Part shown: positions 353-54,518 of the stretch, one piece after another | Numbering within the stretch: position 1 is the stretch's first letter | Layout: each line of letters begins with the position of its first letter | Source: a virus | Strand: one strand, 5' to 3' | Length of the DNA stretch: 54,915 bases | Virus record (IMG/VR): IMGVR_UViG_3300042557_000196 | Span: 1 to 54,915 of that record | Position numbers and translations under genes: made by a program | The notes under the pieces: model-generated | Databases searched by the model: none | What the model was told of the DNA's origin: nothing | The model's input: the letters and a program-made list of their open reading frames with translations, nothing else

Positions 353-913
353 ATGGAGTACCCAATCCTTCGCCCAACGGGGAGTTCGGTCGTTCCGTAC
401 CTGCACGTCCCCTATGCGTTCTGCGACCTTGCCGAAGAACTGCCAGAGAAGGGGACGCGCTTCGTGCCGCACTCCTCCTTCGACGGGATCGACCGGCACA
501 TGGGACTCTTCGACCTTGACCAGAACGACTACCGGCACGTCTACAACCGGGTGGAGGGCACGATCCTGCACCTTCAGGAAGCGGTATGGGGCTTCAACCT
601 GTACTCGTGGCATCAGGAGCTGCGGATCAACCGCTACAAGGCCGGGGACGGCTTCCCTCTGCACACTGACCTTGGCGGCGTCGACCACACAAAGCTCATC
701 GCAGTCGTTGAGCTTGGCGAAGGCGACTACGACGGTGGGGAGCTTTCGTTCGTGACCAACCACAACGAGGGTGACGCTGCGGTCAGGACCGTGCGAATGA
801 AGAAGGGCGACCTCGTTCTGCTTCCGGGCTGGACGACGCACCGGGTTGAGCCGATCACGAGAGGCACGCGCTACTCACTGACGGGGTGGTTCGCGGGTCC
901 GAGCTTCGTATGA
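353..913 (+). CDS. 2OG-Fe(II) dioxygenase, copy 1
   Basis: A 186-residue protein of the 2-oxoglutarate/Fe(II)-dependent oxygenase superfamily (prolyl hydroxylase-like fold). The iron ligands are visible as an H-T-D motif (LHTDLGG) and a distal His (TTHRVEP), followed by the 2OG-binding Arg (GTRYSL). The C-terminal GDLVLLPGW strand is typical of the jelly-roll core. It ends in an ATGA overlap with TerL. It is clearly a paralogue of the protein at 2972-3514: both have a WGF-x-L ... LR-x-N-x-Y block and the same order of ligands. The substrate (DNA base, nucleotide or protein) is not shown. The neighbouring DNA methyltransferase makes DNA-linked chemistry possible. Confidence 0.85.
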   Translation: MEYPILRPTGSSVVPYLHVPYAFCDLAEELPEKGTRFVPHSSFDGIDRHMGLFDLDQNDYRHVYNRVEGTILHLQEAVWGFNLYSWHQELRINRYKAGDGFPLHTDLGGVDHTKLIAVVELGEGDYDGGELSFVTNHNEGDAAVRTVRMKKGDLVLLPGWTTHRVEPITRGTRYSLTGWFAGPSFV

Positions 914-2298
914 GCCAGCTCATCCTCCGCCCACCGCAGGACGACGACGAACTGCACGAGGCAATCCTGACCTTGTGCGGGTTCGACATTCCACGAGAGA
1001 AGGTCTGCCGGAACCACGTCGCACCGTTCGACGCATTCTCCGACGCCTTCTTCAGTCGGCACCCCGTGTCCATCTGGAAGGCGTCACGCGGCTTCGGAGG
1101 CAAGTCCACGCTGCTCGGCACCCTTGTCTGGGCAGAGGCGGTCCTACTGTCCGCTCAGGTGACCGTGCTGGGCGGCTCGGCGGCTCAGTCGCAGCGCGTC
1201 CACGAAGTGACGCAGGAGGTCTGGTACTCGCCGCTCGCCCCGACGGGCCTGCTGGAGTCTGATCCGACCACGTTCAAGACACGCCTCAAGAACCGTGCGT
1301 GGATCATCGCACTAATGGCATCGCAGAAGTCAGTCCGAGGCCCGCACCCGCAGCGCCTTCGACTGGACGAGATTGACGAGATGGACCTTGATATTCTGGA
1401 AGCCGCGCAGGGGCAGCCGCAGGAGGCGCGCGGAATCGAATCGCAGACGGTCATGTCCTCAACGCACCAGTACCCGGACGGCACGATGACCACGATGATG
1501 AACCGTGCCGGGGAGAAGGGCTGGCCGATCTACGAATGGTGCTGGCGGGAGTCGATGGGCACCGCTGACAACCCCGGATGGCTGAAGGAGTCGATGGTCC
1601 TTCGCAAGCAGGCTGAAGTCTCCAAGCAGATGTGGGACACCGAGTACGACCTTCAGGAACCGTCGTTTGAGGGTCGTGCCATCGTGACCGAGTTCGTGGA
1701 CCTCTGTTTCGATCCTGCGCTCGGTGAGTACGACGGCGAGCCTGAGTACGAAGTCATCGCAGAAGAGCCGGTGGAGGGCGTCCCATACGTCACTGGCGTG
1801 GACTGGGCGAAGGAGAACGACTGGACGGTCATCCGCACGTTCCGTGCCGACGGCCCGGTCTGGCAGGAGGTCGCCTTCATGCGAATCCAGCGCAAGACGT
1901 GGAGCTACATGGTCCACCTCGTCAACCGGCGCTGGAACAAGTACGGCGGCATCGTCGTCCACGACTCCACCGGCTTGGGTTCTGTCGTCAACGACTTGCT
2001 GGAGATTCCACGCACTCAGGTCAAGCCGTTCGTTCTCGTCGGGCGTGAGCGAGAGTCTGCGTTTATCGAATACATCGCAGCGATTGAGCATGAGTCGATC
2101 AAGTGCCCACGCATCACGTTCGCCTACAACGAACACAAGTACGTCCGGTCCAGCGACCTCTTCACGTCCAGTGGCCACGCCCCCGACTCGTTCGTGGCTG
2201 GGGCGCTGGCGTGGTCCGTCCGCAGGAGGGCAGTGCTGGACCCTGTACGCATCCACTCCGCTCTCAAGGACGGCGGATCGCAGTGGCAGATCGCATGA
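910..2298 (+). CDS. terL: Terminase large subunit
   Basis: The packaging motor ATPase and nuclease, 462 residues. The N-terminal ATPase has a Walker A-like ASRGFGGKST (residues 58-67) and a Walker B with acidic LDEID (D153/E154). The C-terminal RNase H-like nuclease has acidic residues in GVDWAKEND (D298), VHDSTG (D352) and HAPDSF (D426). I chose ATG 910 because it overlaps the upstream stop as ATGA; an in-frame GTG lies at 886. It ends in another ATGA with the methyltransferase. The small subunit is at the other end of the window (53913-54518), which fits a circular map. Confidence 0.92.
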   Translation: MSQLILRPPQDDDELHEAILTLCGFDIPREKVCRNHVAPFDAFSDAFFSRHPVSIWKASRGFGGKSTLLGTLVWAEAVLLSAQVTVLGGSAAQSQRVHEVTQEVWYSPLAPTGLLESDPTTFKTRLKNRAWIIALMASQKSVRGPHPQRLRLDEIDEMDLDILEAAQGQPQEARGIESQTVMSSTHQYPDGTMTTMMNRAGEKGWPIYEWCWRESMGTADNPGWLKESMVLRKQAEVSKQMWDTEYDLQEPSFEGRAIVTEFVDLCFDPALGEYDGEPEYEVIAEEPVEGVPYVTGVDWAKENDWTVIRTFRADGPVWQEVAFMRIQRKTWSYMVHLVNRRWNKYGGIVVHDSTGLGSVVNDLLEIPRTQVKPFVLVGRERESAFIEYIAAIEHESIKCPRITFAYNEHKYVRSSDLFTSSGHAPDSFVAGALAWSVRRRAVLDPVRIHSALKDGGSQWQIA

Positions 2299-9356: not shown

Positions 9357-10229
9357 ATGCCCAAGGCAACCCGCAAGGCTGGGACCTCCAGCCCCAAGTC
9401 CACCACCACGACCACCAGCGGCACTCGCAAGCCCGCCGCACGACGCAAGGCAGCATCCTCTACGCCCGCCGAGCAGCACGTTCCCGAATCGACTGAGCCG
9501 AACCCTCGTGCGGCTCACCGTGAGCGGATGGCTGCCAAGGAGGCCATGACCAAGGCGGTCACGGAATCCGCCAAGGTGCCGATGGAGTACAGCGACTTCG
9601 CCAAGCTGGACGACGCCCTCAAGGCGGCGCTCATCACTGGGCTGGACGCCGACTCCAACGGTGGCCAGTCCCGCAACGAAGTGGGCGAAGAGTACTTCGA
9701 CACGTTCATGGACGAGTTGGTCGACGGCCAGATGGACTTGGACATTGACTCGTTCATCGTCGCCTTGCTCGTTCGCCGTCGCAACCTCATCCTCCACGCC
9801 ACTGGCGACCCGGAGGCGCACGAAGAGTACAGCGACTTCAACGGCACGGGCGCTGGCCTCTTCGTCAAGGGCATGTACGAAGCGTTCGGCCTCAGGGCCA
9901 CCAGCGATGCTTGGGAGGCACCCAAGCCTGCCGCCACCAGTGGCAGCAAGGACGGGCCAATCTTCTCCGTCAGGGAAGTCACTGACGGCGAGGCCAACCC
10001 AACCGAACCTGCGTATCGCTCGGTGTACGAGGCCATCAACGATGGCGTTGGCCGTGGCACTCGCATCGCCATCCTGTACTCACGAGGCAACACCAACCGC
10101 CGCAAGTACCACGGCGAGATGGGGACCGTCCTCAACGTCAACCGGACGACCATCACCGCCAAGCTGGACTCCAGCGGCATCAAGGCCCGTGTCTCGCCCC
10201 AGCTTCTCTTCAAGGTGGTGGACGTTTGA
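9357..10229 (+). CDS. Early-block protein with basic disordered N terminus
   Basis: 290 residues. Residues 1-60 are low-complexity Thr/Ser/Lys/Ala/Pro, and the remainder is folded-looking. The C-terminal part (about 215-290) holds RIAILYSRG ... KYHGEMGTVLNVNRTTITAKLD, which resembles a small beta-barrel such as a KOW/SH3-like fold. It lies directly upstream of the MoxR ATPase, which shares a similar Thr/Ala-rich basic N-terminal tail with the same Ser-Thr-Pro motif. It could be a partner or substrate of that system. No family is recognised. Confidence 0.75.
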   Translation: MPKATRKAGTSSPKSTTTTTSGTRKPAARRKAASSTPAEQHVPESTEPNPRAAHRERMAAKEAMTKAVTESAKVPMEYSDFAKLDDALKAALITGLDADSNGGQSRNEVGEEYFDTFMDELVDGQMDLDIDSFIVALLVRRRNLILHATGDPEAHEEYSDFNGTGAGLFVKGMYEAFGLRATSDAWEAPKPAATSGSKDGPIFSVREVTDGEANPTEPAYRSVYEAINDGVGRGTRIAILYSRGNTNRRKYHGEMGTVLNVNRTTITAKLDSSGIKARVSPQLLFKVVDV

Positions 10230-10285
10230 TGACCACCTCAACCACCCGCCAGTCAACCAACGCAACCAACAACAAGGAGGGCCGT

Positions 10286-11338
10286 ATGGCCACGACCACC
10301 ACCACCTCGCGGAAGGCCACCAAGCGTTCCGCCTCTACGCCCGCTGCTGCGCCGGTCCACCCGCTGGCCAGCCTCATCCCCGATCCCGCCACCTACTTGG
10401 ACGGGTACGTTCACCGCACCATCCGTGGAGTCAACGACTTCGACTACATGGATCAGGTCTGGGAGGGTGACGGCAACGCCGCCTACAACCTCCTGATCGA
10501 AGGCCCGACGGGTGCGGCCAAGACGTCGCTCTGCTACGCATGGGCGGCATCCCGTGGCATCCCCCTCCTGCCCATCAGCGGCACCAAGGCCATCGACATG
10601 GAGCAGCTCGTCGGAGGCCCCGGCATCATCGGCAGCGAACTCAAGTCGTTCGTGCCGGGTGTTCTCGTTCAGGCCATGCAGTACGGCGCACTCGTGCTGC
10701 TGGACGAGAAGAACTACATCCCGCAGAAGGCGATGGGCCGCCTCAACTCGCTGCTGGATCGCCGCAAGTCGCTGGAAGTCAAGGAGGCCGAAGGTTCCGG
10801 CTGGTGCGCTTCCTGCGGCCTCTACAACGACGTGGAAGCGATTGCCAAGGCGCAGGAGGCAGTCATCCTGCACCACCTCGGCAAGCGCAAGGCTGCGGCC
10901 AAGCCGCCAGTGTGCAAGCACTGCGGCGAGGTGTACCAGTCCACCATCGTGACCGCCCTCGCTGGCAAGTTCATGGTCGTGGCGACGCAGAACCCCGGCT
11001 ACGAGGGGGTCTACGACGACAACGAAGCCCAGCGCAACCGCTTCCACGAGGTGGTCACTTTCGACTACGACGTGGAAGTGGAGAAGGACCTCTTGTGGTC
11101 CGACGGACTCATGGCCCTCGCTGCGGCGATCCGGGGACGCTACGGCATGGACTTTGAGACACCCCTCGGCACCAACCGGCTCATGCACTTTGAGGCGGTC
11201 GCACTCAACGAGAAGCTGGGCATCGGTTTCGCCTGTGAGGGCTTGGTCGATTACTTCCAGCCCTCCGAGCGTGCTGCCGTCAAGGAACTGCTGGAGATGC
11301 ACCTCTCGCAGATCGAAGCAGAGCTGGCGGAGGTCTGA
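10286..11338 (+). CDS. MoxR-type AAA+ ATPase with zinc-ribbon insert
   Basis: 350 residues from ATG 10286, with AAGGAGG seven bases upstream. Walker A is GPTGAAKT (73-80; the usual second Gly is A78), Walker B LVLLDE (D140/E141) and sensor 1 ATQNP (N236). Between Walker B and sensor 1 there are two CxxC pairs (C174/C177 and C210/C213), likely a zinc ribbon. MoxR-family ATPases act with VWA-domain partners to remodel or insert metal into target proteins, and the next gene is such a partner. The N-terminal tail (1-25) is Thr/Ala-rich and disordered. Confidence 0.85.
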   Translation: MATTTTTSRKATKRSASTPAAAPVHPLASLIPDPATYLDGYVHRTIRGVNDFDYMDQVWEGDGNAAYNLLIEGPTGAAKTSLCYAWAASRGIPLLPISGTKAIDMEQLVGGPGIIGSELKSFVPGVLVQAMQYGALVLLDEKNYIPQKAMGRLNSLLDRRKSLEVKEAEGSGWCASCGLYNDVEAIAKAQEAVILHHLGKRKAAAKPPVCKHCGEVYQSTIVTALAGKFMVVATQNPGYEGVYDDNEAQRNRFHEVVTFDYDVEVEKDLLWSDGLMALAAAIRGRYGMDFETPLGTNRLMHFEAVALNEKLGIGFACEGLVDYFQPSERAAVKELLEMHLSQIEAELAEV

Positions 11339-11345
11339 CCGCCAC

Positions 11346-11381
11346 GCTGACCGGGGTATGACTCGCTCTGCCCCGGTCAGC
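11346..11381 (+). terminator. Hairpin between MoxR ATPase and VWA gene
   Basis: GCTGACCGGGG (11346-11356) pairs perfectly with CCCCGGTCAGC (11371-11381), with a loop of 14. CTCTACGCC (11389) and a CCAACCAACAAGGAG leader follow at once. There is no T tract. The same order of elements recurs after the VWA gene. Confidence 0.6.
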
Positions 11382-11421
11382 ACCCACCCTCTACGCCCAA
11401 CCAACCAACAAGGAGAACAGC

Positions 11422-13515
11422 ATGCCGTCTACAGTCGAAGAACGCGCTACGGCGCACGCAGAGGTCACTTCATTCTGCCAGCGAGTTCTGGCCAGCCTCG
11501 TGCAGTCGCAGGGCAAGGTTGTCCGATCCATCCTCGGCAACGACACCCCGGTGACATACCACTACCAGTTCAACTCAAGCTTCTCCGCACCGTCCATCGC
11601 ATGGACTGATATGAAGAGTGTCTACATCAGCTTCGACAAGGCTAGCGAGGGGCTGGAGAAAGCGATCAGGGACTCCAAGGTGGACACCGAGCTGGTGACC
11701 CTCTCGGCAGTCGTGAAGCACGAACTCGCTCACCTCATGTTCAGCCCCGGCATGGACTCGCAGTTGATGGATGAGGTTCGTCGTTGCGGCGTTAGCACCG
11801 CGTTCAACATCCTTGAGGACAGCAGGATTGAGCGACTCTTCATCGCCAAGTACCCCGTGATGGCCAAGCTGTTCTCCATCATGGTCAACCGCTGGGTTGT
11901 CAGCGGGAACGCAAGGGCCCACCAAACCTCTTGGACTTTGCTGGCTGGAAGGCGCTACCTCAGCAGCGCAGTGAGGGACGCCTCGCGGGCCTCATTCGTC
12001 GGCTGGGCAAGGAACATGGGCATGGCCTCGGTAGGTCAGGTTGCCGACAGGGTGCAGCAGATTCATGACGCCTTCTACCGACTCGTGCCGTCGAACGACA
12101 AGCGCATCCTCTCTACCGACGATCATCAGATGATTCTGCTGGCCAAGGAGTTGGCAGACATTATCGCGTGCGGCGCCAATATGTCTGAAAGCACTGGGCA
12201 CTCTGATCCGAGCCAGTCCGGCATGGCCAACGATAGCCGTGGTGATGCACCCTCGGAGGCTTCCAAGGACGCCTTGGAAGAGGGGGACGCTCAGGCCAGT
12301 CAGGATGGGGATGGCAGCGACTCCACTGGTGGCGACGACGCTGCCTCTACGCCGAGCGACGCCGACGATGATGCCGATGCTGATGCCGATGCCGATGCAT
12401 CCTCCGCTGGCGACAGTGACGGCGACGCCGCCTCCAGCGACGGCGAAGGCGACGGCGAAGGCGACGGCGAAGGCGACGGCGACTCCAGCGAAGGCGACGG
12501 CGGATGCGGCGGCGACTCCACTGGCAGCGGCGATGCAGGTGGTTCCAAGGACGGAGAGGTGGCGAACGAACATGGCCACGGCGGTTACTCCAAGGGCAGT
12601 GGCAGCGACGCCTACGACCCTGTAAGCCTCGGTAAGGCCGCTCAGGAGTCCATCGACGCTGCGATGCAGTCCTCCGAGATTCAGAATGAGGTCCAGTCGT
12701 ACCGGGACCTCATGAACGACGGGTCGGGGCTGCGCTCGTTCTCCAAGCGCATCGGGCCAGCGAATGTCAAGCCCAACCCCGAACACTCGGTTTACGGTGC
12801 GAGCGAAATCCGGGCTAACGCCAAGGCGGCAAGTTCCAAGGTCGCCAAGGAGTTGGGTCGCCTTCGGTCGGCGGTTGAGGAAGAGCTGCTCACGAAGGAG
12901 TCTCGTGGCCGACTGGACGTTTCGGAGATCGTGCGCCGAACCATCAAGGACAAGCCTCTCGTCAACATCTACCGCCGCTTCGACGACGGGCAGGAGGACG
13001 AGGCTGGCATCGACATGGTGGTGATGGTGGACGGTTCTGCCTCAATGGGCTACGGCCATTCGTACAAGGCTTGTGCTGCCGCTTGGGCACTCAAGCACGC
13101 GATGGATCGCATCGGGCAGCCTTGCGGGGTGGTCAGTTTCTCCAACGTCTGCCGGACGATCTACGACTCCTACGAGAAGGCGGGGTCGGAACCAGTGTGG
13201 TCCTATGACTCGCAGAACACCGACCCCTTCATTGGCGCCGTTGCGGCACGGGACTTCTTCTCTCGCCCCAACGCCAACAAGGTGCAGGTGTTCGTTCTCC
13301 TCACTGACGGTTCGTTCGATGCAGAGACTGACGTGGTGGTCAAGCAGATGAACGACGCTGGCGTCATCACCGCCCTCTTCGGCTTGTCTAATGCCGTCCT
13401 CAAGCACGGCGATCACTCGTGCGCCATTTCCAGCGACATTCAGAACTCTCTGGAGATGGTGGCGATCGTCCGCAAGATTGTCCTCGCTGCCCAGCGAAAG
13501 GTGATCGAAGGGTGA
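11422..13515 (+). CDS. VWA-domain protein with HExxH metallopeptidase-like N terminus
   Basis: 697 residues. The N-terminal part has HELAH (H100-E101-x2-H104) followed by NILEDSRIE (E132 as possible third ligand), as in the putative metallopeptidase region of DUF2201/CobT-like proteins. A long Asp/Ala/Gly/Glu/Ser-rich linker (about 250-395) leads to a C-terminal VWA domain with MIDAS DGSAS (537-541) and LLTDGS (D629). Together with the MoxR ATPase upstream it forms a MoxR-VWA chaperone-like pair. Its substrate is unknown. The acidic linker carries GAC-GGC-GAA repeats and one CTCTACGCC. Confidence 0.82.
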   Translation: MPSTVEERATAHAEVTSFCQRVLASLVQSQGKVVRSILGNDTPVTYHYQFNSSFSAPSIAWTDMKSVYISFDKASEGLEKAIRDSKVDTELVTLSAVVKHELAHLMFSPGMDSQLMDEVRRCGVSTAFNILEDSRIERLFIAKYPVMAKLFSIMVNRWVVSGNARAHQTSWTLLAGRRYLSSAVRDASRASFVGWARNMGMASVGQVADRVQQIHDAFYRLVPSNDKRILSTDDHQMILLAKELADIIACGANMSESTGHSDPSQSGMANDSRGDAPSEASKDALEEGDAQASQDGDGSDSTGGDDAASTPSDADDDADADADADASSAGDSDGDAASSDGEGDGEGDGEGDGDSSEGDGGCGGDSTGSGDAGGSKDGEVANEHGHGGYSKGSGSDAYDPVSLGKAAQESIDAAMQSSEIQNEVQSYRDLMNDGSGLRSFSKRIGPANVKPNPEHSVYGASEIRANAKAASSKVAKELGRLRSAVEEELLTKESRGRLDVSEIVRRTIKDKPLVNIYRRFDDGQEDEAGIDMVVMVDGSASMGYGHSYKACAAAWALKHAMDRIGQPCGVVSFSNVCRTIYDSYEKAGSEPVWSYDSQNTDPFIGAVAARDFFSRPNANKVQVFVLLTDGSFDAETDVVVKQMNDAGVITALFGLSNAVLKHGDHSCAISSDIQNSLEMVAIVRKIVLAAQRKVIEG

Positions 13516-16865: not shown

Positions 16866-17831
<966 letters not shown>

Positions 17832-17840
17832 CACAAGTTC

Positions 17841-27004: not shown

Positions 27005-27864
27005 GTCCGGCGACCATCGCACCGCGCTTTCGCCCACGAGAGGTTGAGTCTGTCGTTGACAAGTTGTGGGCCAAGTACGACTCAGAGCTTGACGCCGCCT
27101 TCCTTGCGTCAGTCCGCAAGACGCTGAGTACCAAGGACGCACGGCGGGCAAGGGACTACCTCGCAGAATCGGCAGTCGTCCCTAGCGTGCTGATCCGACG
27201 CCTGCACGTTGAGATCACGCCGCTCGCCCGTGTCTTTGCCAAGGCGGCGAGGGACGCCCACGTCGCCACGATGAATGCCTACGGGCAGCTCTCCAAGGCA
27301 GCCATGCCGCCAGACCTGTCTGAATCGCTGCTAGCGGTGATCGCAGAGCTTTCGGATGACCTTGACGCCACGGCACGAGAGGCGGTCGTGGTGGCGCTTA
27401 CAAAGGCCATCAGGGGCAACCTCTCACCGGCAGAGCTGCGGGAAGTGTTCGACAACTCCATGTTCCTGAACCCGCAGCTTGCACTGGCGGTGGAGAATCT
27501 CCGTGCTGGGCTGGTGGCCAAGGACGTTGCGCCGGGATCAGCACGGTCCTCTGCCAACCAGTACGCCCTGTCTCTACGCCGATCACGCGCAGCTACCGTC
27601 GCCAGAACAGAGCTTGCCAAGGCCGTCGAAGCCGGGAAGATGACTGCCTACGACGAGATTCTCTCCAACGTGGGGATGCCCACTGGGTACGCAGAGCTTG
27701 AGTGGCTGGTCACGAAGGACGACCGGCTCTGCCGCAAGTGTGTGGCAATGGATGGCGACCGCACGAGCTACGACTCGCCAGCGTGGTCGGCACCTCTCCA
27801 CCCGAACTGCCGATGCACCACGCTTCTGGTGTTCCCTGACATCTCTAAGGGTGACTACTCATGA
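27001..27864 (+). CDS. MuF-like minor head protein
   Basis: 287 residues from GTG 27001. The C-terminal half has the MuF (SPP1 gp7) pattern: ARTELAKAVEAG ... WLVTKDDRLCRKCVAMDG ... PLHPNCRCTTLLVFP. MuF proteins enter the prohead with the portal. It ends DISKGDYS, the start of the KGDYPGHPFRGNQW tag carried by the next protein. CTCTACGCC at 27572 is in a third reading frame here. Confidence 0.85.
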   Translation: MSPATIAPRFRPREVESVVDKLWAKYDSELDAAFLASVRKTLSTKDARRARDYLAESAVVPSVLIRRLHVEITPLARVFAKAARDAHVATMNAYGQLSKAAMPPDLSESLLAVIAELSDDLDATAREAVVVALTKAIRGNLSPAELREVFDNSMFLNPQLALAVENLRAGLVAKDVAPGSARSSANQYALSLRRSRAATVARTELAKAVEAGKMTAYDEILSNVGMPTGYAELEWLVTKDDRLCRKCVAMDGDRTSYDSPAWSAPLHPNCRCTTLLVFPDISKGDYS

Positions 27865-29099
27865 TTCTTCAGTACATCGCCAAGGCCGGTACGACCTACG
27901 CAGGCGTTCCTATCGACTGTGAGTTCGACCAGAACCTGAGCGTTCTCGTCCTCTCGGCCAACGGGAATGTTGAGCTGATGAAGTGGTCGCACTTCGACGT
28001 TCTCTATCACTGGGTTCCATCCACCGGCATGGCGGCAGTCAGAGACAGCGTGGTTGATTCGCTGATCTCCAAGGGTGACTACCCCGGTCATCCGTTCCGG
28101 GGGAACCAGTGGACTGGAGGAATCCGTGGCGGGTTCTTCATGGCTCCTGATCGTGGCGCTGGTACTGGCGGCGGGATCGTGGGACGCGCAAAGGGCAAGG
28201 AGGTCACTACGTCGCTGGGCAAGGTCAGAAAGCTGCCCGATGCTGATTATGAGATCACCCGTGGCACGACGACCAAGGATGCGAAGGCTCAGTTGGCCAA
28301 CACGCGTGGCTCGTTCTCTCAGGCGATCAACCCTGCGACTGGGCACCGAATGTCGAACACAGAGCTTGGCGACACGATGGAAGCACTGCTCGTGGCAGAG
28401 CTACCCAAGAATGCTCAGGCCACCAAGGTGCTTGGCGGAAGCCTCACTTCACTTGTTGGCCCGTCTGGGCCGGACGGTGGAGCGAGCAGGCAGGGTGCCA
28501 TCGACTTGGTGACCTCTGGGCGTGGCAGCAAGCGTGGCAAGGCGCTGGAAGCCAAGACACTCTCAATGCAGGCTGCTGATCCGAAGGTGTCGATCAAGCC
28601 TGATGAGGTCAGGTCGAAGGCCAAGGCCGCAAGGGAGATGGAGAAGGACGGCGGCATTCTCGTGTCCTTGTTCGACAACGACACACAAGCAATCCGAGTG
28701 TTCCTCTACGACGGGAACCCTGACTTCCTGCCAACCACTCGTGAGGGACGCATCCAGATCAAGATGAACCAGTCAGGTTGGCAGAACCTCCCAGTTGGTA
28801 CGATGGTCCCGGTTGCAGAGGTAAAGGTCACGAAATCCAACTGGACGAAGGCTCAGAAGCAGGCCGGGTGGCATCGTGACAAGGACGGAAAGCTCCCGGC
28901 GTCGTCGGGCAGCGCAAAGGTTGTCAAGCAGGAGCCTGAGATGAGCGACGAGAACGACATTGAGGAAGGCGACATCGTGATCGGGCTTGCCGGTGACGGA
29001 ACTCCATACGTCGCTTGGGCTGGCGAGCCGACAGAGGACATGAAGGTGCTGGAAGCGGACTCGCTCAACCGGCTCTCTGAGATGGAGGACGAGGCGTGA
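27861..29099 (+). CDS. Head-associated cargo protein with KGDYPGHPFRGNQW tag and nuclease-like domain
   Basis: 412 residues. A KTFY-like small N-terminal domain (about 1-60, barrel-like) is followed by the tag KGDYPGHPFRGNQWTGG (71-87). Next comes a domain with AIDLV (D215) and LEAKTL (E230-x-K232), a spacing that suits PD-(D/E)XK nucleases. The C terminus is acidic. Encoded right after MuF, it may be packaged in the head and ejected into the host. The nuclease call is from motif shape only. Confidence 0.55.
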   Translation: MILQYIAKAGTTYAGVPIDCEFDQNLSVLVLSANGNVELMKWSHFDVLYHWVPSTGMAAVRDSVVDSLISKGDYPGHPFRGNQWTGGIRGGFFMAPDRGAGTGGGIVGRAKGKEVTTSLGKVRKLPDADYEITRGTTTKDAKAQLANTRGSFSQAINPATGHRMSNTELGDTMEALLVAELPKNAQATKVLGGSLTSLVGPSGPDGGASRQGAIDLVTSGRGSKRGKALEAKTLSMQAADPKVSIKPDEVRSKAKAAREMEKDGGILVSLFDNDTQAIRVFLYDGNPDFLPTTREGRIQIKMNQSGWQNLPVGTMVPVAEVKVTKSNWTKAQKQAGWHRDKDGKLPASSGSAKVVKQEPEMSDENDIEEGDIVIGLAGDGTPYVAWAGEPTEDMKVLEADSLNRLSEMEDEA

Positions 29100-29992: not shown

Positions 29993-30435
29993 TGGCCACC
30001 CGTGGCCGGATCATCACCGTTGCTGATGTAGAGAAAGCTGCGGGCAACTACACCAACCCCAAGCTGCGAGAGCGCCTGAAGAACAAGATTCTCGCCGGGA
30101 GCAGAGGGGGCAAGCCGGGGCAGTGGTCCGCTCGCAAGGCCCAGCTTCTGGCTCAGGAGTACGAAGCCAAGGGCGGCGGCTATCGAGGCAAGAAGGGCAA
30201 GGCCCAGCGCAGCCTCAGTCGGTGGACCAAGGAGAAGTGGACCACCTCCAGTGGCAAGCCGTCGGAAGGTAAGCGGCGCTACCTTCCAGAACGTGCGTGG
30301 TCAGAGCTAACCGAAGCTCAGGTGAAGGCGACAAACTCTAAGAAGGCCGCTGGCAACAAACGTGGCAAGCAGTTCGTCCCCAACACAGAGGCTGCGGCTG
30401 AAGCTGGCAAGCGTGCCCGTGGCAAGAGGTCCTGA
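29992..30435 (+). CDS. Basic head-associated protein, DUF5872-like
   Basis: 147 residues, strongly Lys/Arg-rich. It begins with an ITVADVEKA tag, then a domain of the pattern RLKNKILAGSRGGKPGQWSARK ... LAQEYEAKGGGY that I associate with DUF5872. The C terminus is basic and disordered. The charge suits packaging next to DNA. TGATG overlaps on both sides. Confidence 0.65.
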   Translation: MATRGRIITVADVEKAAGNYTNPKLRERLKNKILAGSRGGKPGQWSARKAQLLAQEYEAKGGGYRGKKGKAQRSLSRWTKEKWTTSSGKPSEGKRRYLPERAWSELTEAQVKATNSKKAAGNKRGKQFVPNTEAAAEAGKRARGKRS

Positions 30436-31946
30436 TGCCCGAGAAGAAGCCACTGAAGGACCCCAAGGGTGGCCTCACTGCGGCTGGACGCAAGGCGTTC
30501 GCTGCTCGTGACGGCGCGAACCTGAAACCGGGGGTCAAGAACTACGAGAAGGCTTCCACCGCTGACAAGAAGAGGTGGATTAGCTGGGCGCTGCGGTTCT
30601 ACGGCCAGAAGGACTACCCACCTCTGGTCAAGCCCAACGGCGAGCCGACTCGCTTCGCCCTCACCGCTGCGGCGTGGGGCGAGCCAGTGCCCAAGACAGA
30701 GAAGGCCGCACGGGCCATCGCTGCCAAGGCCCGCCGCCGCCAAGCAGAGATCGACCGCATGGAGAAGTCGTCCTCTACGCCCAAGCGCCCAATCACGGTT
30801 GCTGATGTTGAGGAATCAGTCGCTAAGGGCGACTACCCCGGACACCCGTTTCGAGGCAACCAGTGGACGGGCGGAGTCCGTGGCGGCATGAGGACTGTTG
30901 TCGGCCCTGACAACGTGGAAATGCAGCTCGCTAACCCGATTGGGTCGCTCGCTGCTGAACATGGAGTCAGTAAGGACTGGCACAAGGTCACTGCCGTCAC
31001 TCCCTCTAAGCGTGCGGCTATTGCTAAGGCATACGACGACATGCCCGAGAGAAGCCGTGATCCGAAGGTGATCGCTTCGTGGGACTCTGCTGCTCGTCAG
31101 ATTGACAGCCAGTTTGAGAAGCTCACTGGAGAACTTGGGATCAGGGTTCAGTTTGTAACGAGAGATCCATACAGGGACTTTCACAACATGCGAGAAGAGG
31201 TTGAAAGAACCGGGACGCTCAAGGTTCTGCGAACCTCGTCAACAGGTGGGCACCCATACTGGTCGGACGAAACTAACGACAGGTTTAGAGCAGTTCACGA
31301 TGCGTTCGGCCACCTTGGCACTGGTAGAGGTTTCGACCGTCACGGCGAAGAAGCTGCTTACCAAGCTCACAGGTCAATGTTCAGTAGAGATGCTCACCTA
31401 GCTCTAGCCACGGAGCTTCGTGGTCAGAACAATGCTCTTATTCAGACTGGCGAGTTTCAGGTTCAGAAGATTGGTGCCCTGCCAGAAACACTCCGCAAGT
31501 TCTTTGCCATTGCAAAGAGTAATGGGCGCATCACTTCTGATGACGATAACGCCTATGAGGTTGGACGAAGCCACCATGTAAGTGGTGGGCGACACTTCGC
31601 TAACACCTCTACGCCGAAGCGCCCAGTCCCCGTCGCGGACGTGGAGGAGTCAGTCACCAAGGCAATGACGCCCATGCAGCGGGAGCAGCGACGCAACGCT
31701 GGCCGGTCGTCGGCAGCACGCCGCACCAAGGGAGTCGGCGGCAACGGGTCCAAGAAGAAGTCAGGCCCGCCTCAGGCTACAAAGAAGCGGCGTGGTGATC
31801 GTAAGGTTGTCGTGAGTGAGCAGAAGGCCAAGCGCCTGATGGACACTGCACGAAAGCGCGGCCTCAAGATTGACAGTCGTGGGGCAGAAGGAAGAGCCGA
31901 CATTGTTCTCCCAAGCGGGAGGCGCATCAAGGTCATGGTCAAGTAG
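30435..31946 (+). CDS. Multi-domain head cargo protein with two tag repeats and HDxFGH domain
   Basis: 503 residues. Domain 1 (10-105; GGLTAAGRKAFAARDG) resembles DUF6321. Tag 1 is STPKRPITVADVEESVAK then KGDYPGHPFRGNQWTGG (114-147). Domain 2 (about 150-390) has VHDAFGH (287-293) and TELRGQN (326-332), a conserved phage domain that may bind metal and be enzymatic. Tag 2 is STPKRPVPVADVEESVTK (392-409), then a basic C-terminal part. Both tags start with CTCTACGCC at DNA level (30773, 31607). It looks like a packaged polyvalent protein. Confidence 0.6.
   Translation: MPEKKPLKDPKGGLTAAGRKAFAARDGANLKPGVKNYEKASTADKKRWISWALRFYGQKDYPPLVKPNGEPTRFALTAAAWGEPVPKTEKAARAIAAKARRRQAEIDRMEKSSSTPKRPITVADVEESVAKGDYPGHPFRGNQWTGGVRGGMRTVVGPDNVEMQLANPIGSLAAEHGVSKDWHKVTAVTPSKRAAIAKAYDDMPERSRDPKVIASWDSAARQIDSQFEKLTGELGIRVQFVTRDPYRDFHNMREEVERTGTLKVLRTSSTGGHPYWSDETNDRFRAVHDAFGHLGTGRGFDRHGEEAAYQAHRSMFSRDAHLALATELRGQNNALIQTGEFQVQKIGALPETLRKFFAIAKSNGRITSDDDNAYEVGRSHHVSGGRHFANTSTPKRPVPVADVEESVTKAMTPMQREQRRNAGRSSAARRTKGVGGNGSKKKSGPPQATKKRRGDRKVVVSEQKAKRLMDTARKRGLKIDSRGAEGRADIVLPSGRRIKVMVK
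30773..31660 (+). repeat. Duplicated DNA module carrying the VADVEESV tag
   Basis: About 50 bases at 30773-30831 and 31607-31662 encode near-identical 18-residue segments and both start with CTCTACGCC. Related shorter tags are coded at about 29735 (VADVEETVAK), 30017 (VADVEKA) and 32278 (VKSVEEAVAKGY). This points to domain shuffling by recombination between tag sequences. Confidence 0.65.
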
Positions 31947-49362: not shown

Positions 49363-49920
49363 ATGCAAGACATTCAGCAGCTTGGCCACGAGTGTGTCGT
49401 CGGCATCGACCCATCATCGAAGAAACTTGCATGGACCGTGCTCACTAGCGGTTCGTTGTGGTGCGGATCAGCACGGCTCCCGCTCAAGAAGGCCGACCCA
49501 TACACTCCAAACAACGCAGCGGTGGCTATGACTGTCGCAAGGGAGCTTGTTGGCTACGCTGCCGACCTTGCAAGGGAGCCGGTGTTCTTCATCGAAATGC
49601 CAGTGGTCGGACGTGGTGGCGTTTACTCTTCGCTCAGTCAGGCATATGTCAATGGAGTGGTGCAGGCCGTTGTTTCAGCTCAAGGGCATGAGATAGTCCT
49701 TGTCCATCCCAGCAAGTGGAAGAGTCGTGTCGTTGGCAAAGGATCAGCAACTAAGCCCGACGTGGCTGAGTATCTTCGACTTCGATGGCCGGATCTCTAC
49801 GCCGCCGCCAATGGTGACGAGGACATCATCGACTCAGCAGCGATTGCACTTTACGGAGCTGCCGTTGTCTGCGGTGGACCGGAGGTGGATGCGCCACGCA
49901 GAGTGCGAAGGTCTGACTGA
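49363..49920 (+). CDS. RuvC-like Holliday junction resolvase
   Basis: 185 residues from ATG 49363. The RNase H-fold acidic residues are GIDPSSK (D16), FIEMPV (E78) and DEDIIDSAA (D154/D157). The start codon touches the CCA of the tRNA, so tRNA 3'-end cutting would leave a leaderless message; no Shine-Dalgarno can exist outside the tRNA. It resolves recombination branches, together with the RecA-type module at 22-24 kb. Confidence 0.82.
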   Translation: MQDIQQLGHECVVGIDPSSKKLAWTVLTSGSLWCGSARLPLKKADPYTPNNAAVAMTVARELVGYAADLAREPVFFIEMPVVGRGGVYSSLSQAYVNGVVQAVVSAQGHEIVLVHPSKWKSRVVGKGSATKPDVAEYLRLRWPDLYAAANGDEDIIDSAAIALYGAAVVCGGPEVDAPRRVRRSD

Positions 49921-50182
49921 CCTCTTCTTCTCGCATGAATGCAAGAGCAACTGCACTGACAAGAAGCCGTGCGACCGTGATCCGAGAGTTGTCGAAGCCA
50001 AGGCACTATGCTCCGAGTGCCAAGTCATCGGCCAGTGCAGGTTCTGGTCTATCGTGACTGCTCTCCCATCTGGAATCGCTGGTGGGCTCACCGTGAAGGA
50101 ACGACGCCGCATCCGCCGTCAGCTCAGGCTTGAGAACTTCCCGTTTGACGACTACAGGAGAGAAGATGGCCAAGAAGGCTGA
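49889..50182 (+). CDS. WhiB-family Fe-S transcription regulator
   Basis: 97 residues from ATG 49889 (TTG 49865 with GGAG six bases upstream is an alternative). Cluster ligands C6, C41-x2-C44 and C50 and a G-[IVW]-x-G-G turn (GIAGG; the usual Trp is Ala), then basic KERRRIRRQ as in WhiB. There are three extra Cys in a longer N-terminal loop. It probably modulates host sigma factor at late times. It overlaps both neighbours. It defines the host as actinobacterial. Confidence 0.82.
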   Translation: MRHAECEGLTDLFFSHECKSNCTDKKPCDRDPRVVEAKALCSECQVIGQCRFWSIVTALPSGIAGGLTVKERRRIRRQLRLENFPFDDYRREDGQEG

Positions 50183-51500
50183 AATCTTGGACAAGATGGT
50201 TGAGGACGTGCCGGTGTCCAAGCTCAAGACTTATCCCGGCAACCCTCGCAAGGGTGACGTGGATGCCATCGCTGAGTCGCTTGAGTACCACGGCCAGTTC
50301 CGCCCCATCATCGTGCAGAAGTCAACGAGCTATGTCCTCGGTGGCAACCACACCTTCATGGCTGCCAAGAAGCTCAAGTGGCCCACCATCAAAGCGGTCT
50401 ACCTTGACGTGGACGACGAGGAAGCCAAGCGGATCGTCCTTGCTGATAACAAGCTGAGTGATTCCGCTGGGTACGACTCGCAGCTCCTTGCGGAGCTTCT
50501 GGCGTCCGTTCCCGACACTGCTGGCACTGGGTACGATCAGCAAGAGCGTGACGCCCTGCTGGCGGTGCTGGAGACAGCTACTGAGGAAGCGTCAATGTCT
50601 GTCTTTGAGTCGAACCTCGACGCCTTGAGCAGCGTTGATGACCCGCTTATGTCGCTCCCTGACCTTGACGAGTACGAAGGCGGCGAAGAAGAGGACACTG
50701 GTAGGCCGTTCCTTGACGCTTCTGATGAACTCAAGGGTCCGTTTCAGCTCTCGGACGACATTGACATTCCTCTAGTCACTGACTGGCAGATGCCTGCTCT
50801 TCGTCAGGACATGATGGTTGAGTACATTCCAGACAACTTGCAGACGTGGGCTGGATCAGCAACTAGAGACATTGACGACGACACGATCTGGTGGCTCTAC
50901 AACTTCGGCGTGGATTCCACCTCAGGTATGCGTGACGTGTCGAAGATGATCCTCTCGTTCTACGCATGGGACGAATACTTTGAGAACTGGTGGTGGGACA
51001 CTGCGAAGTACATGAGCCGTGCGCTCAACAGCGGCGTAAAAATGGCCATCTGCCCGAACTACACGCAGGGAGATATGAGCCGGGTGCTGTCGCTCTGGAA
51101 CCTGTACCGCTCCCGGTACATCGGGCGCTACTTCCAAGAGATCGGCATTCGGGTCATGCCTGACTGCGAGATCCTTGACGACAAGCTCTTCTACCAGCTC
51201 TGTCAGGCCATCACCCCGAAGAACGTGCCGTGGGCCTCCGTTCAGGTTCAGAACATCACTGGGTCAACCCGTGGTGGTGATCGCAAGACGAGTGACGACG
51301 TTGATCGGTGGAAGGCTCAGATGCTTCGCACCTACGAAGCACTCAACAAGCCACACAACCTGATCGTGTACGGCAACTCCAACGGCTTTGAGATGATCGA
51401 AGAGATGAAGCTGCCCGTGGATGAACTGCGGTTCCTTGAGTCACGGGTGTCGAAGTTGTCCGAGCGTGCCAAGGGCCGAGAGCGAAAGACGACGCTGTAG
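50166..51500 (+). CDS. ParB-like domain fused to DUF4417-like domain
   Basis: 444 residues after AGGAGA. Residues 12-110 are ParB/Srx-like (VSKLKTYPGNPRKGDVDAIAESL, GGNHTFMAA, LADNKLSD). An acidic linker (about 150-195) leads to a C-terminal domain with IWWLYNFGVDSTSGM, AICPNYTQGDMSRVL and RYIGRYFQEIGIRVMPD that resembles DUF4417. ParB/Srx domains bind or hydrolyse nucleotides; DUF4417 has no fixed role that I know. The stop overlaps the start of the ureohydrolase (TAGTG), so both act in the same unit. Confidence 0.72.
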   Translation: MAKKAEILDKMVEDVPVSKLKTYPGNPRKGDVDAIAESLEYHGQFRPIIVQKSTSYVLGGNHTFMAAKKLKWPTIKAVYLDVDDEEAKRIVLADNKLSDSAGYDSQLLAELLASVPDTAGTGYDQQERDALLAVLETATEEASMSVFESNLDALSSVDDPLMSLPDLDEYEGGEEEDTGRPFLDASDELKGPFQLSDDIDIPLVTDWQMPALRQDMMVEYIPDNLQTWAGSATRDIDDDTIWWLYNFGVDSTSGMRDVSKMILSFYAWDEYFENWWWDTAKYMSRALNSGVKMAICPNYTQGDMSRVLSLWNLYRSRYIGRYFQEIGIRVMPDCEILDDKLFYQLCQAITPKNVPWASVQVQNITGSTRGGDRKTSDDVDRWKAQMLRTYEALNKPHNLIVYGNSNGFEMIEEMKLPVDELRFLESRVSKLSERAKGRERKTTL

Positions 51501-52225
51501 TGCTGGTCGCATACGAGTACGAAGCTGACCAGCGTTTCAGCGGTGCGAGCCGTGGCCCTGCCCAGCTTGACCAGTGGGCTGGCGGTATTGAGTGGGGGCT
51601 GCGCTTCACCTACCCGTCAACGGCGTCGTCCGAGGAAGCCATGACGGCTTTCGCTGATCGCTTGTCGAAGGTCAGCCGCAAGGAGCGGGTTGTGGTGATC
51701 GGCGGGTGCCATAGCGGCAGCTACTCGGCAGTTCTTGCTGCCCACAGACGTGCTGGCCAGAAGGTTGGCGTTCTCTGCTTCGACGCCCATCTGGATGCAG
51801 AGCCGCTGGGTGACTTCGATGGTGATTCGCTCTACACCAACGCCTCAATGTGGCGCCTGCTTGCCAGCAAGGGAGCCGCAGTGGTCAGGGTTGTTGGCGT
51901 CAGAAGCGCAGCGACCCAGTACGAGAACGACAAGGTTCGGATCAGCAGAACGGTTGGCGAAGCTCTGTCTGACCTTGCAGACATGCCGCTCTATGTCTCC
52001 ATTGACATTGACGCATTCGACACCGCCTCTACGCCTGCAACGTCGTGGCCAGTGCCGGGTGGGTTGGAGCTACAGCCGGTGATCGACGTGGTGTCTGCGC
52101 TCGCTTGCTCCAGCCGGCTTGTTGGCGGCGACATTATGGAGTTCAACCCAGCGGTGGCAGCCGGAACGCACGGCGTCACTGAGCAGAGCATCTGGTCGCT
52201 GGTAAATGCGTTCGATGCTCTTTGA
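51500..52225 (+). CDS. Arginase/agmatinase-family ureohydrolase
   Basis: 241 residues from GTG 51500. All manganese ligands are present: GGCHS (H71; the usual Asp before His is Cys), DAHLD (D95, H97, D99) and SIDIDAFD (D169, D171), plus an MEFNP Glu (E214) and the substrate-loop motif PVPGGL. It is shorter than free arginases (~300). Family members cleave guanidino groups of arginine, agmatine or arginine within peptides. The next gene codes for an Arg/Lys/Gly repeat protein, so a peptide substrate is possible (inference). Confidence 0.82.
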   Translation: MLVAYEYEADQRFSGASRGPAQLDQWAGGIEWGLRFTYPSTASSEEAMTAFADRLSKVSRKERVVVIGGCHSGSYSAVLAAHRRAGQKVGVLCFDAHLDAEPLGDFDGDSLYTNASMWRLLASKGAAVVRVVGVRSAATQYENDKVRISRTVGEALSDLADMPLYVSIDIDAFDTASTPATSWPVPGGLELQPVIDVVSALACSSRLVGGDIMEFNPAVAAGTHGVTEQSIWSLVNAFDAL

Positions 52226-52229
52226 GCTA

Positions 52230-52285
52230 GACACACAAGTGTGTCAGGGTTTAGTTACTCAACTCATTTGAGAGGAGGTGACAAC
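52230..52285 (+). promoter_or_regulatory. Operator-like repeat and near-perfect ribosome site before the repeat protein
   Basis: GACACAC-aa-GTGTGTC (52230-52245) is a perfect hyphenated palindrome just after the ureohydrolase stop. CTCAA / TTGAG (near 52258 and 52268) could form a small hairpin. The Shine-Dalgarno AGGAGGTGA (52273-52281) is complementary to the 16S tail over nine bases, four bases before ATG 52286: the strongest site I saw in the window. Confidence 0.6.
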
Positions 52286-52558
52286 ATGGACGAGATCATC
52301 GTTGATGACGAGCTGATCGCTGAAGGCGAGATGCCGACTCGTGCTTCTGGCGGAGGCACCACCAAGAAGGGTGGAGGCCGTAAGGGCGGAGGCACCAAGA
52401 AGGGCGGCGGCCGAAAGGGCGGCGGCACCAAGAAGGGTGGAGGCCGGAAGGGTGGCGGCACCAAGAAGGGTGGCGGCACCAAGGGCGGCGGCACCAAGAA
52501 GGGCGGCACCAAGAAGGGCGGAGGCCGGAAGGCTCCCCGCTCGCGGGCCAAGAAGTGA
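52286..52558 (+). CDS. Gly/Lys/Arg repeat protein with acidic leader
   Basis: 90 residues. The first ~21 are acidic and leader-like (MDEIIVDDELIAEGEMPTRAS). Residues 22-82 are tandem units of GGGTKKGGGRK or GGGTKK; the end is APRSRAKK. Lys codons are nearly all AAG, read by the tRNA-Lys(CUU) of this phage. Such a layout fits a modified peptide precursor, a polycation for DNA condensation, or an RNA-binding tail. Repeat Arg residues lie next to a ureohydrolase gene. Not recognised as any family. Confidence 0.75.
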   Translation: MDEIIVDDELIAEGEMPTRASGGGTTKKGGGRKGGGTKKGGGRKGGGTKKGGGRKGGGTKKGGGTKGGGTKKGGTKKGGGRKAPRSRAKK

Positions 52559-52573
52559 GCTGACCTCACTCAT

Positions 52574-52624
52574 GACAGGCCACCTAGTTGGGCGAGCATC
52601 ACTCACCAGCTAGGTGGCCTTGTC
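52574..52624. terminator. Bidirectional terminator hairpin
   Basis: GACA-GGCCACCTAG (52574-52587) pairs with CTAGGTGGCC-TGTC (52610-52624), with one bulged T. On the plus strand TCGTTTCT follows. It lies between the convergent repeat-protein gene and the minus-strand JAMM gene, whose last codons overlap it. Confidence 0.7.
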
Positions 52625-52971
52625 GTTTCTATGGACAGGCGCACGCCAAGCTCCTTGCCACGGACGTACCATCGCTGATCCTCTCCAGCGACGACCATGC
52701 CCAGCCACTTCGGCGGGATTCCACGCAAATCAGCACGAGATGGTTCTGGCACTTCTTGGCAGTGTGAGTGGGCCACCCCAACGATGCTGGCTAGGTCGTC
52801 CACGTCACTGCGGTAAACGGAGAACCTCTCTGCCGGGTCATCTGCACGGTTCGGCACGTGGAGCAGCGACCTGATGATGTAGAAGTATCTCCACCTGACG
52901 CCAACCATCAGGGCTACCATCTCGGCGTCGTCGTACCACAATGGCGGTGGCCACTCGGCCTGCCACAACAC
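52603..52971 (-). CDS. JAB/MPN (JAMM) metalloprotease-like protein
   Basis: 122 residues from GTG 52971; GTG 52998 is an in-frame alternative but would overlap the divergent gene. The zinc motif is complete: HSH-x7-S-x2-D (AHSHCQEVPEPSRAD). A Glu near the N terminus could be the catalytic base. JAMM proteins cut isopeptide or peptide bonds; in phages they occur in tail proteins. It is alone on the minus strand beside the repeat-protein cassette. Confidence 0.7.
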   Translation of the reverse strand: MLWQAEWPPPLWYDDAEMVALMVGVRWRYFYIIRSLLHVPNRADDPAERFSVYRSDVDDLASIVGVAHSHCQEVPEPSRADLRGIPPKWLGMVVAGEDQRWYVRGKELGVRLSIETTRPPSW

Positions 52972-52988
52972 GCGAGGAGTGTCCTTCA

Positions 52989-53816
52989 GTGACCGCACAA
53001 GAAGTCCCAGTCTCTATCCGTCAGAAGCACGAAGGCGACAACTACCGCTGGCGTCAGCGCAAGAGCGCAGTTGAGATGGTGGACATTGAGATCGCCACCC
53101 CGGATGGCGTCACGATCTACCGCTGGGACGTGACGTTCATGCTCTCCACGTTCACTTGCGTCTACGGGAACGGGTGCAAGGGTTCTCATGGGCATCCTGA
53201 TGTTGGGTGCTGCACTCGGGGTGCGTGGTTCAGTTCCGATCAAGAGATCGACAGGGTGTTTGAGCATGTCAAGCGCCTGCCTGACTCTATGTGGCAGAAG
53301 AAGCCCAAGGGTGAGATCGACAAGTCCACGGTGTTCGCCATCTCTGGCAAGGACGACGACGGGAACCTTGAGTACAAGACAAGGGTGAAGGGTGGGGCGT
53401 GCATCTTCGCCAACAACGGTGACCACGAGTACCCCGGTTGCTCGCTGCATTCCACCGCACTGCTCAATGGTGAGGACCCGATTCCTGCCAAGCCTGACAT
53501 CTGCAACCTCTACCCGGTGCGGTGGCTTGAGGACTACGACGACGAGCTTGACGTGACCATCCTGACGATTGCTCCAGTGGATTCCCACTACTGGAACCCC
53601 GATCAGGAGTGGTGGTGCGTTGAGGACCCGAGTGCCTACAGCAAGGCCACTGGCCCGTTCTACCTGCGGTGGCGCGATGAGCTTGTGCAGACCGTCGGTA
53701 TCGAAGCGTGGGAGGCATTCCATCGGTGGGTCACTGCCAACCGTTCGGCCATTGCAGGGTCACCCTCACTGCTTCCAGAACGGTACACAACGGAGCCGTT
53801 TGACTACCCTGAATGA
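52989..53816 (+). CDS. Cys-rich protein, YkgJ-like
   Basis: 275 residues from GTG 52989; an in-frame ATG lies at 52941. Cys pattern: TCVYGNGCKGSHG, VGCCTRG, GGACIF, YPGCSLHS, DICNLYPVRW, like metal- or Fe-S-binding UPF0153/YkgJ proteins (CxxxxxC...CIF...C..H..KP..CxxxP). The rest is aromatic-rich. Perhaps a redox or radical-related enzyme. The assignment is by pattern. Confidence 0.5.
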   Translation: MTAQEVPVSIRQKHEGDNYRWRQRKSAVEMVDIEIATPDGVTIYRWDVTFMLSTFTCVYGNGCKGSHGHPDVGCCTRGAWFSSDQEIDRVFEHVKRLPDSMWQKKPKGEIDKSTVFAISGKDDDGNLEYKTRVKGGACIFANNGDHEYPGCSLHSTALLNGEDPIPAKPDICNLYPVRWLEDYDDELDVTILTIAPVDSHYWNPDQEWWCVEDPSAYSKATGPFYLRWRDELVQTVGIEAWEAFHRWVTANRSAIAGSPSLLPERYTTEPFDYPE

Positions 53817-53912: not shown

Positions 53913-54518
53913 ATGGCACCAGACCCCGCAGGACGCCCCGTAAAGCCCGATCTCGCCATCGACCCTGACGGTGTACCCATCGAGCTCTCCGACCCGTCAG
54001 AAGGCCACCTAGACGATGGTGCCGAAGGGTCCGGGGACGTGGGGAGCGTGATCCTGTCAGACATTCAGGACAAGCTGGCCAACGATGTACCACTAGCCCC
54101 GGCTGAGAAGCAGCGCATGGCAGTGACCCTGCGCCTATCGGGAGCTACCTACAAGCAGATCGCCGGGTCAATCGGGATCAGTGTGAGCTATGCCCACCAG
54201 CTTGTGCAGACAGCCTTGCGGGATACTGCCCATGACAGTGTTGAGGATCTAAGGCGTATGCAGTTCGCCCGGTTGGAACACATGCTCATGATGGTCTGGC
54301 CAAGCGTTGCACAACGGGACCTAGCGAGCATCCACACTGCAATGTCCATCATGCGTGACGAGAATGCACTGATGGGGGTGGACAAGCCAACGACGGACGG
54401 GGACGGACTGATGGATGCAGGCCCCACCATTGTGGCTACTGGGGACAAGGCTGAGTACCTGAAGGCACTGCGTGAAGCTAGGGAGCGTGCCCTAGAACCC
54501 AAGCCTGACACTGACTGA
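53913..54518 (+). CDS. terS: Terminase small subunit
   Basis: 201 residues. An N-terminal Pro/Asp-rich segment, then a helix-turn-helix (RLSGATYKQIAGSIGISVSYAHQLV) and helical middle part (LRRMQFARLEHMLMMVWPSVAQRDLASIHTAMSIMRDENALMGVDKP) typical of actinophage terminase small subunits. It recognises the packaging site; the GCAGT cluster just downstream is a candidate. TerL is reached across the contig ends. Confidence 0.75.
   Translation: MAPDPAGRPVKPDLAIDPDGVPIELSDPSEGHLDDGAEGSGDVGSVILSDIQDKLANDVPLAPAEKQRMAVTLRLSGATYKQIAGSIGISVSYAHQLVQTALRDTAHDSVEDLRRMQFARLEHMLMMVWPSVAQRDLASIHTAMSIMRDENALMGVDKPTTDGDGLMDAGPTIVATGDKAEYLKALREARERALEPKPDTD

Follow-up and report, generated by a model that had tools for sequence, protein, structure and literature searches.

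A ureohydrolase of the arginase family and a small protein with an acidic leader and a basic tail form a recurring, once-fused and co-varying pair within a gene cassette of phages. Sequence comparison suggests, with a probability of about 0.4, that the enzyme works as a ureohydrolase dedicated to peptidyl arginine, with the leader-tail junction of a packaging-side polycation as its site of action. That it would turn one junction arginine of this protein into ornithine, giving a phage-made, edited polycation, is a tentative extension of this reading.

The DNA analysed here, referred to as the window, comprises all 54,915 bases of an IMG/VR virus record (IMGVR_UViG_3300042557_000196), and the cassette is located at its right end (Table 1). 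The first-pass annotation had described a ParB-DUF4417 fusion, a ureohydrolase with all metal ligands and a 90-residue repeat protein with an acidic leader, and these assignments were borne out by profile matches, ligand positions and the repeat score. Its description as three coupled genes holds for the first two, as the stop codon of the ParB-DUF4417 gene overlaps the GTG start of the ureohydrolase gene at position 51500; the third gene has its own ribosome-binding site 60 nt further on. The feature originally delimited as 52230-52558 includes an untranslated spacer of about 55 nt before the coding part, 52286-52558. The position of the RuvC-like resolvase gene matches that in cassettes of Gordonia phages and of IMG/VR records, and in many relatives WhiB also precedes ParB-DUF4417. 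Gordonia phage DalanDe encodes a full-length relative of the window ParB-DUF4417 protein (38% identity), and the window DUF3109-like protein is 29-30% identical to Gordonia phage proteins from the equivalent position. A JAB gene is found in the cassette of many relatives; its orientation is minus in the window and in L197 (7255-7623) but plus in most of the relatives. The best PHROG of the helix-turn-helix protein is annotated 'Rnase E'.

Table 1. Features of the cassette and its presumed neighbour in the window.
Feature	Position	Strand	Evidence
RuvC-like resolvase, left end of cassette	49363..49920	+	PF02075 1.5e-4, phrog_159 1.2e-19
WhiB-domain open frame, putative start, overlaps RuvC gene	49700..50182	+	PF02467 1.5e-11
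ParB-DUF4417 fusion	50166..51500	+	ParB_N 2.2e-6, DUF4417 2.5e-17
Ureohydrolase, arginase family, 241 aa, GTG start	51500..52225	+	PF00491 4.8e-31
Ribosome-binding site of small protein, AGGAGGTGA	52273..52281	+	sequence reading
Leader-tail protein, 90 aa, ATG start	52286..52558	+	strong ribosome-binding site just upstream
Acidic leader, residues 1-21 of small protein	52286..52348	+	charge, leader comparison
Arg19 codon in GEMPTR, proposed ureohydrolase target	52340..52342	+	junction-arginine co-variation
Gly/Lys/Arg repeat tail, putative nucleic-acid-binding polycation	52349..52558	+	charge, repeat analysis
JAB metallopeptidase-like protein, HxH-x7-S-x2-D	52603..52998	-	PF14464 5.1e-7, alignment
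Cys-rich DUF3109-like protein	52941..53816	+	PF11307 2.8e-6, below cut-off
Helix-turn-helix protein, perhaps small terminase (inferred)	53913..54518	+	weak HTH matches only
Terminase large subunit	886..2298	+	phrog_2 1e-9; cassette neighbour if genome circularly permuted

Portal, terminase and capsid genes of the window were recognised via PHROGs. Two 2OG-Fe(II) oxygenase genes (353-913 and 2630-3514) flank the terminase gene and a DNA methyltransferase gene. At 10226-13515 an AAA ATPase (AAA_5) adjoins a VWA-domain protein with a long acidic stretch rich in Asp, Gly and Ser. The proteins encoded at 27861-29099 and 30435-31946 have KGDYPGHPFRGNQWTGG(I/V)RGG in common, the latter also containing DUF6321, and the protein encoded at 16866-17834 carries several long Asp and Glu runs in its C-terminal half.

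The small protein begins with MDEIIVDDELIAEGEMPTRASGGG, followed by GGGTKK and GGGRK units. Its leader has a net charge of -6 and its tail (32 Gly, 19 Lys, 6 Arg) one of +25, a value in keeping with the strongly basic tails of the DNA-condensing, histone- or protamine-like class of phage proteins. Tandem Repeats Finder detected an array with a period of 33 nt and 4.4 copies (88% matches, score 218), in which the Gly and Arg codons vary between units while the Lys and Thr codons are constant. Judged by its charge, the tail would be a polycation that binds nucleic acid. With regard to a possible RiPP-precursor nature, which would require a cut that frees the core, leader and tail are distinct, and a JAB peptidase gene is located nearby in many relatives. 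A tblastn search with the small protein returned no match, probably because low-complexity sequence was filtered, and a literature search on Lys-rich phage proteins near portal genes returned only unrelated work.

The window enzyme scored 108.7 bits against PF00491 (cut-off 22), the only profile found with E values up to 1, and it contains the motifs GGCHS and SIDIDAFDT. Its predicted model (pLDDT 84) has the arginase fold (Z 25.8, rmsd 2.7, 236 aligned residues). With 241 residues, compared to about 310 in animal arginases, the enzyme is about 60-80 residues shorter than agmatinases and arginases, with which it shares the fold, the metal ligands and the catalytic Glu (H71, D95, H97, D99, D169, D171 and E214). 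All enzymes found after ParB-DUF4417 belong to PF00491, and the six metal ligands plus Glu are complete in eight of nine family members, the exception being L083 with Asp for the first His. At the place of the arginase shuttle residue His141, the window enzyme has Asn, L089 Ser and L188 Cys, while His is found in L104, L187, L197, L013, L011 and L083. The residue following GxR, which we take to be the equivalent of arginase Asp183, is Ser in the window enzyme and varies across the family. In arginase, Asp183 contributes to the binding of free arginine via its amino group.

These data also bear on the reading of the enzyme as a metabolic agmatinase or arginase that acts on a free guanidino compound in polyamine or nitrogen metabolism, its place in the cassette being an accident kept by descent. 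We consider this unlikely. The best NCBIfam match is indeed agmatinase, the nearest cellular relatives are bacterial family members (33-38% identity to L013), and polyamine genes do exist in phages; the part of a survey of viral polyamine enzymes that was covered reports arginase homologues in no phage and one phage agmatinase homologue (PMC9992855). However, the scores of the window enzyme are below the equivalog cut-offs both for agmatinase (85.5 versus 174.3 bits) and for arginase (59.2 versus 227.6 bits), the Asp183 place is not kept, and no ornithine or arginine decarboxylase (PF02784, PF01276) was found in ten enzyme-positive records, some of them fragments. Free-arginine metabolism is therefore possible but unsupported, and a polyamine pathway was set aside given the lack of a decarboxylase in these ten records. 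Moreover, no polyamine partner was found, the enzyme is locked to one cassette, lying outside it in none of 32 records, and it is fused to the leader-tail protein in L011. A metabolic function would not predict the junction arginine described below.

The single-sequence search of viral contigs with the window enzyme gave no match, the comparison with phage records yielded only bacterial-type agmatinases, and a BFVD structure search returned mostly ParB proteins; relatives of the enzyme surfaced only via the ParB-DUF4417 scan. Identity falls to about 20% between family members, yet these keep the same cassette neighbour, which indicates that the pairing is old.

Recurrence of the cassette was assessed in 76 loci encoding ParB-N and DUF4417 in one frame, which fall into 34 clusters at 90% identity. 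They were collected from IMG/VR and phage records with a scan based on a ParB-DUF4417 alignment, and later scans added others. The scans kept 80 of 112 and 80 of 580 relatives, and the frequencies given here hold for the kept loci. The first-pass annotation had made its proposal depend on recurrent co-occurrence in other genomes, and such co-occurrence was found. Among the matches listed, an arginase-family gene lies directly 3' of ParB-DUF4417 in nine of 34 clusters (window, L011, L013, L083, L089, L104, L187, L188 and L197), or in eight of the 33 with room downstream. A small basic-tailed protein (45-260 aa, start within 900 nt, last 50 residues with at least 28% Lys+Arg and at least 10% Lys) is encoded in 21 of 33 clusters with room, compared to 60 of 1012 random positions (5.9%) on the same contigs. 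It follows the enzyme, or is fused to it, in seven of the eight enzyme-positive clusters with room. Among the twelve clusters that lack it by this rule are L003 and L083, where the proteins are rich in Arg but fall short of the Lys threshold; the L083 protein has no Lys and is doubtfully of the same family. In the enzyme-positive L187 the contig ends 93 nt past the gene, so that the leader lies outside the sequence. When the short-form ureohydrolase was considered, all ten viral loci found lie in the cassette; when the long form led the scan, this was true of seven of eleven loci, the other four being without DUF4417 in the fetched stretch. PF00491 was detected in ten of 32 whole records, with the best match at the cassette every time. 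DUF3109 used as bait yielded two loci.

Full-length relatives of ParB-DUF4417 are also encoded by cultured phages of Gordonia and Brevibacterium. The order in UBSmoodge, ChisanaKitsune, GMA6 and Cantare is RuvC, ParB-DUF4417 and a small protein whose acidic N terminus is followed by a stretch rich in Gly and then by a basic tail. DUF3109-like and JAB genes follow in the Gordonia phages UBSmoodge, ChisanaKitsune and GMA6, and a JAB gene in Cantare. No arginase-family gene was found in the whole records of these four phages or of DalanDe. The three Gordonia phages thus share the window cassette genes in nearly the same order, including the acidic leader, Gly-rich junction and Lys/Arg tail, but differ in lacking the enzyme and in having GAGS or GAGN at the junction. 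As these cultured relatives have the small protein without the enzyme, the repeat protein is seen as a conserved part of the cassette and the enzyme as optional; most cassettes are without the enzyme, which marks it as an accessory part. In many contigs the small protein is encoded directly 5' of the portal gene. Since portal and terminase genes adjoin it, the cassette is read as packaging-side. In L015, L020 and their copies, the terminase large subunit gene directly follows ParB-DUF4417, with neither small protein nor enzyme.

In L011, enzyme and leader-tail protein are joined in one frame of 460 aa, which leads via an acidic stretch into MDTDDIIEGGMATRSTKAVKKAGRGAKK. No clear ribosome-binding site precedes the inner ATG (codon 359); a separate internal start remains conceivable. 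An unrelated peculiarity was observed in L083 (7647-10196 of IMGVR_UViG_3300036652_000269), where a 351-aa intein-like insert interrupts DUF4417 between VIMSFY and CFDDYFENW, at a motif that is among the most conserved of this domain. Inteins often mark active sites.

The leaders of the small proteins differ at their junction to the tail depending on the presence of the enzyme. Enzyme-positive loci have GEMPTR (window), GAMPTR (L104), GSMPTR (L188), GGMATR (L011), GAATR (L013), GAAR (L089), GAR (L197) and, less surely, GSR (L083), whereas enzyme-negative loci mostly have GAGG, some GAGS or GAGN, and L012 and L199 GSGR. A rule that the first basic residue past the last acidic residue of the leader is Arg, with no more than two intervening Gly, describes 8 of 8 enzyme-positive and 2 of 18 enzyme-negative leaders (Fisher 2.9e-5, ignoring kinship). 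The 26 leaders were selected by eye among cassettes in which a leader could be recognised; near-copies were omitted, as were L024, L028, L033, L072 and L023, whose N termini are of other kinds. The rule was derived on 24 leaders, so that only L283 and L284, both negative, are out-of-sample, and it was worded in the knowledge of L089, whose upstream GSG had made an earlier regular expression score it negative. On a tree built from 27 ParB-DUF4417 proteins, four changes of the enzyme label are required. Four independent pairs on this tree gave on average 3.7 in the same direction and 0 in the opposite one (sign test p 0.125; with four contrasts this test cannot reach 0.05). An earlier tree of 25 proteins contained three independent pairs, and a single deletion common to L284 and the L007 clade would perhaps reduce the contrasts from four to three. 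Co-variation of junction and enzyme is thus consistent in direction, with numbers too low for a firm conclusion.

The arginines of the GGGRK repeats, which the first-pass annotation had regarded as the target, are not favoured by the data and were rejected as such. The share of Arg in the tail is equal with and without the enzyme (Mann-Whitney p 0.88), and L011 has five Arg in 102 aa. This disfavours an edited repeat polycation and favours a single edit at the junction. Of the original idea of an enzyme-edited polycation, the link between enzyme and arginine survives in another form, as the enzyme tracks one junction arginine (Arg19 in the window).

A natural loss of the enzyme was found in L284, the sister of L089 (support 100/99). 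Their ParB-DUF4417 proteins are 79.5% and their portal proteins 99.8% identical. There is no enzyme in the fetched stretch of L284, and the last 14 nt of the L089 enzyme gene plus flank are present right after the ParB stop codon (24 of 24 nt identical). By this comparison, L284 has lost the enzyme and retains a deletion scar. The leader junction reads SGAGGTGGGKGG in L284 compared to SGAARAVAGSKGKG in L089 (SGAGG versus SGAAR). L284 came from the last scan, after the junction rule had been seen; the other new locus with downstream sequence, L283, is enzyme-negative with GAGG. L007 retains GCATA...AGATATACTCTAA of the same junction. The scar is clear in L284 and L007, supportive in L009, L198 and L200, and weak in L190, L194, L195 and L283, and no convincing scar was present in the outgroup. 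If the L007 clade shares the L284 deletion, recombination must explain the ParB tree. Across the phages compared, the junction arginine is usually missing where the enzyme is missing, which suggests, short of proof, that the enzyme edits this arginine.

Fusion, co-loss and co-variation would be explained equally well if the ureohydrolase fold served as a binding partner on which the leader-tail protein docks, with the junction arginine held in the pocket and left unhydrolysed. Drift in the active site, i.e. the replacement of His by Asp in L083 and the variable His141 place, fits with this possibility. Against it, the six ligands and Glu are kept in eight of nine members, and a mere scaffold would not need these ligands; overall this reading seems improbable.

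A further alternative is that the enzyme acts on a guanidino or formimino group provided by ParB-DUF4417, for example in modified DNA, and that the small protein merely brings the enzyme to DNA. The model of the window ParB-DUF4417 protein (50166-51500) shows a TIM-barrel-like domain beside the ParB-N fold, and the best solved matches of DUF4417 include tRNA-guanine transglycosylase (Z 8.5, rmsd 4.5, 207 aligned residues). ParB-like proteins pair with such enzymes in 7-deazaguanine DNA systems. Yet the Z score is near the TIM-barrel background and ties with that of an unrelated hydrolase, no QueC was detected in 17 records, and a base target gives no reason for the junction arginine, all of which makes this alternative very improbable. 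A role of DUF4417 in 7-deazaguanine modification was rejected because of the missing QueC and the weak structural match.

The preferred reading, action of the ureohydrolase on the junction arginine, can be outlined as follows. The cassette consists of RuvC, in some cases WhiB, ParB-DUF4417, the optional ureohydrolase and the leader-tail protein, often followed by DUF3109-like and JAB proteins. The leader would be an acidic, hydrophobic docking part ending in Gly, and the tail a polycation that presumably binds nucleic acid. As the dedicated partner, the ureohydrolase would convert a single peptidyl arginine at the junction (Arg19 within GEMPTR in the window) to ornithine and urea. This edit would alter recognition or cutting of the junction before the tail is used in packaging or assembly. 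In most phages without the enzyme, the arginine is replaced by a junction rich in Gly (GAGG). Ornithine can in principle form a lactam and so break the next peptide bond, and the junction edit could thereby act as an inbuilt switch for releasing the basic tail from the acidic leader; enzyme-less relatives would then cut their Gly-rich junction in another way. No paper on cleavage of a peptide bond by ornithine lactam formation was found in the literature searched. Points against a junction edit are L012 and L199, which have GSGR without an enzyme, the Asp ligand of the L083 enzyme and the Asn at the His141 place of the window enzyme. The arginine can also be a docking residue that is not modified.

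Precedents by analogy for ornithine in peptides are the products of KgrD (PF00491) and OspR (PF12640). The earlier statement that peptide arginases are known in this enzyme family is correct with respect to KgrD, a peptide arginase of enteropeptin biosynthesis which, according to the parts of the publication covered, belongs to PF00491 and acts on Arg in a ribosomal peptide of its own cluster (PMC12703449). As with KgrD, a candidate ribosomal substrate is encoded beside the phage enzyme, namely the leader-tail protein that follows or is fused in seven of eight clusters. In contrast to the window enzyme, KgrD needs thiomorpholine in its substrate and is part of a bacterial natural-product cluster, whereas the candidate partner of the window enzyme is a phage polycation of a packaging-side cassette. 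The peptide arginases OspR, FlmR and OhkR are members of PF12640 (PMC10028609, PMC12703449, covered in part). Like the window pair, these systems combine a ureohydrolase-superfamily enzyme with a precursor that has a leader, one precursor type bearing a DD(I/V)LF motif. They differ from the window enzyme, which matches PF00491 only, in Pfam family and motifs. Fusions of a ParB-CTPase fold to DUF4417 are described as frequent or enriched in phages and of unknown function (PMC12704722); the main text of that paper contains no match for 'arginase', and the leader-tail protein does not appear in the parts covered. Literature searches on DUF4417, peptide arginase, KgrD and phage arginase returned no paper on this cassette.

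The ureohydrolases described here represent a family in phages that occupies a fixed place and has a protein as its probable partner. Should the proposed edit be true, it would to our knowledge be the first case of an arginine changed to ornithine in a viral protein; we know of none in the literature on peptide arginases, phage arginases or KgrD. The sister pair L089 (enzyme-positive) and L284 (enzyme-negative) makes this question testable. A junction edit would mean that a RiPP-like enzyme serves virus assembly, and DUF4417, which is common in phages and has no known function, would gain a defined cassette for experimental study.
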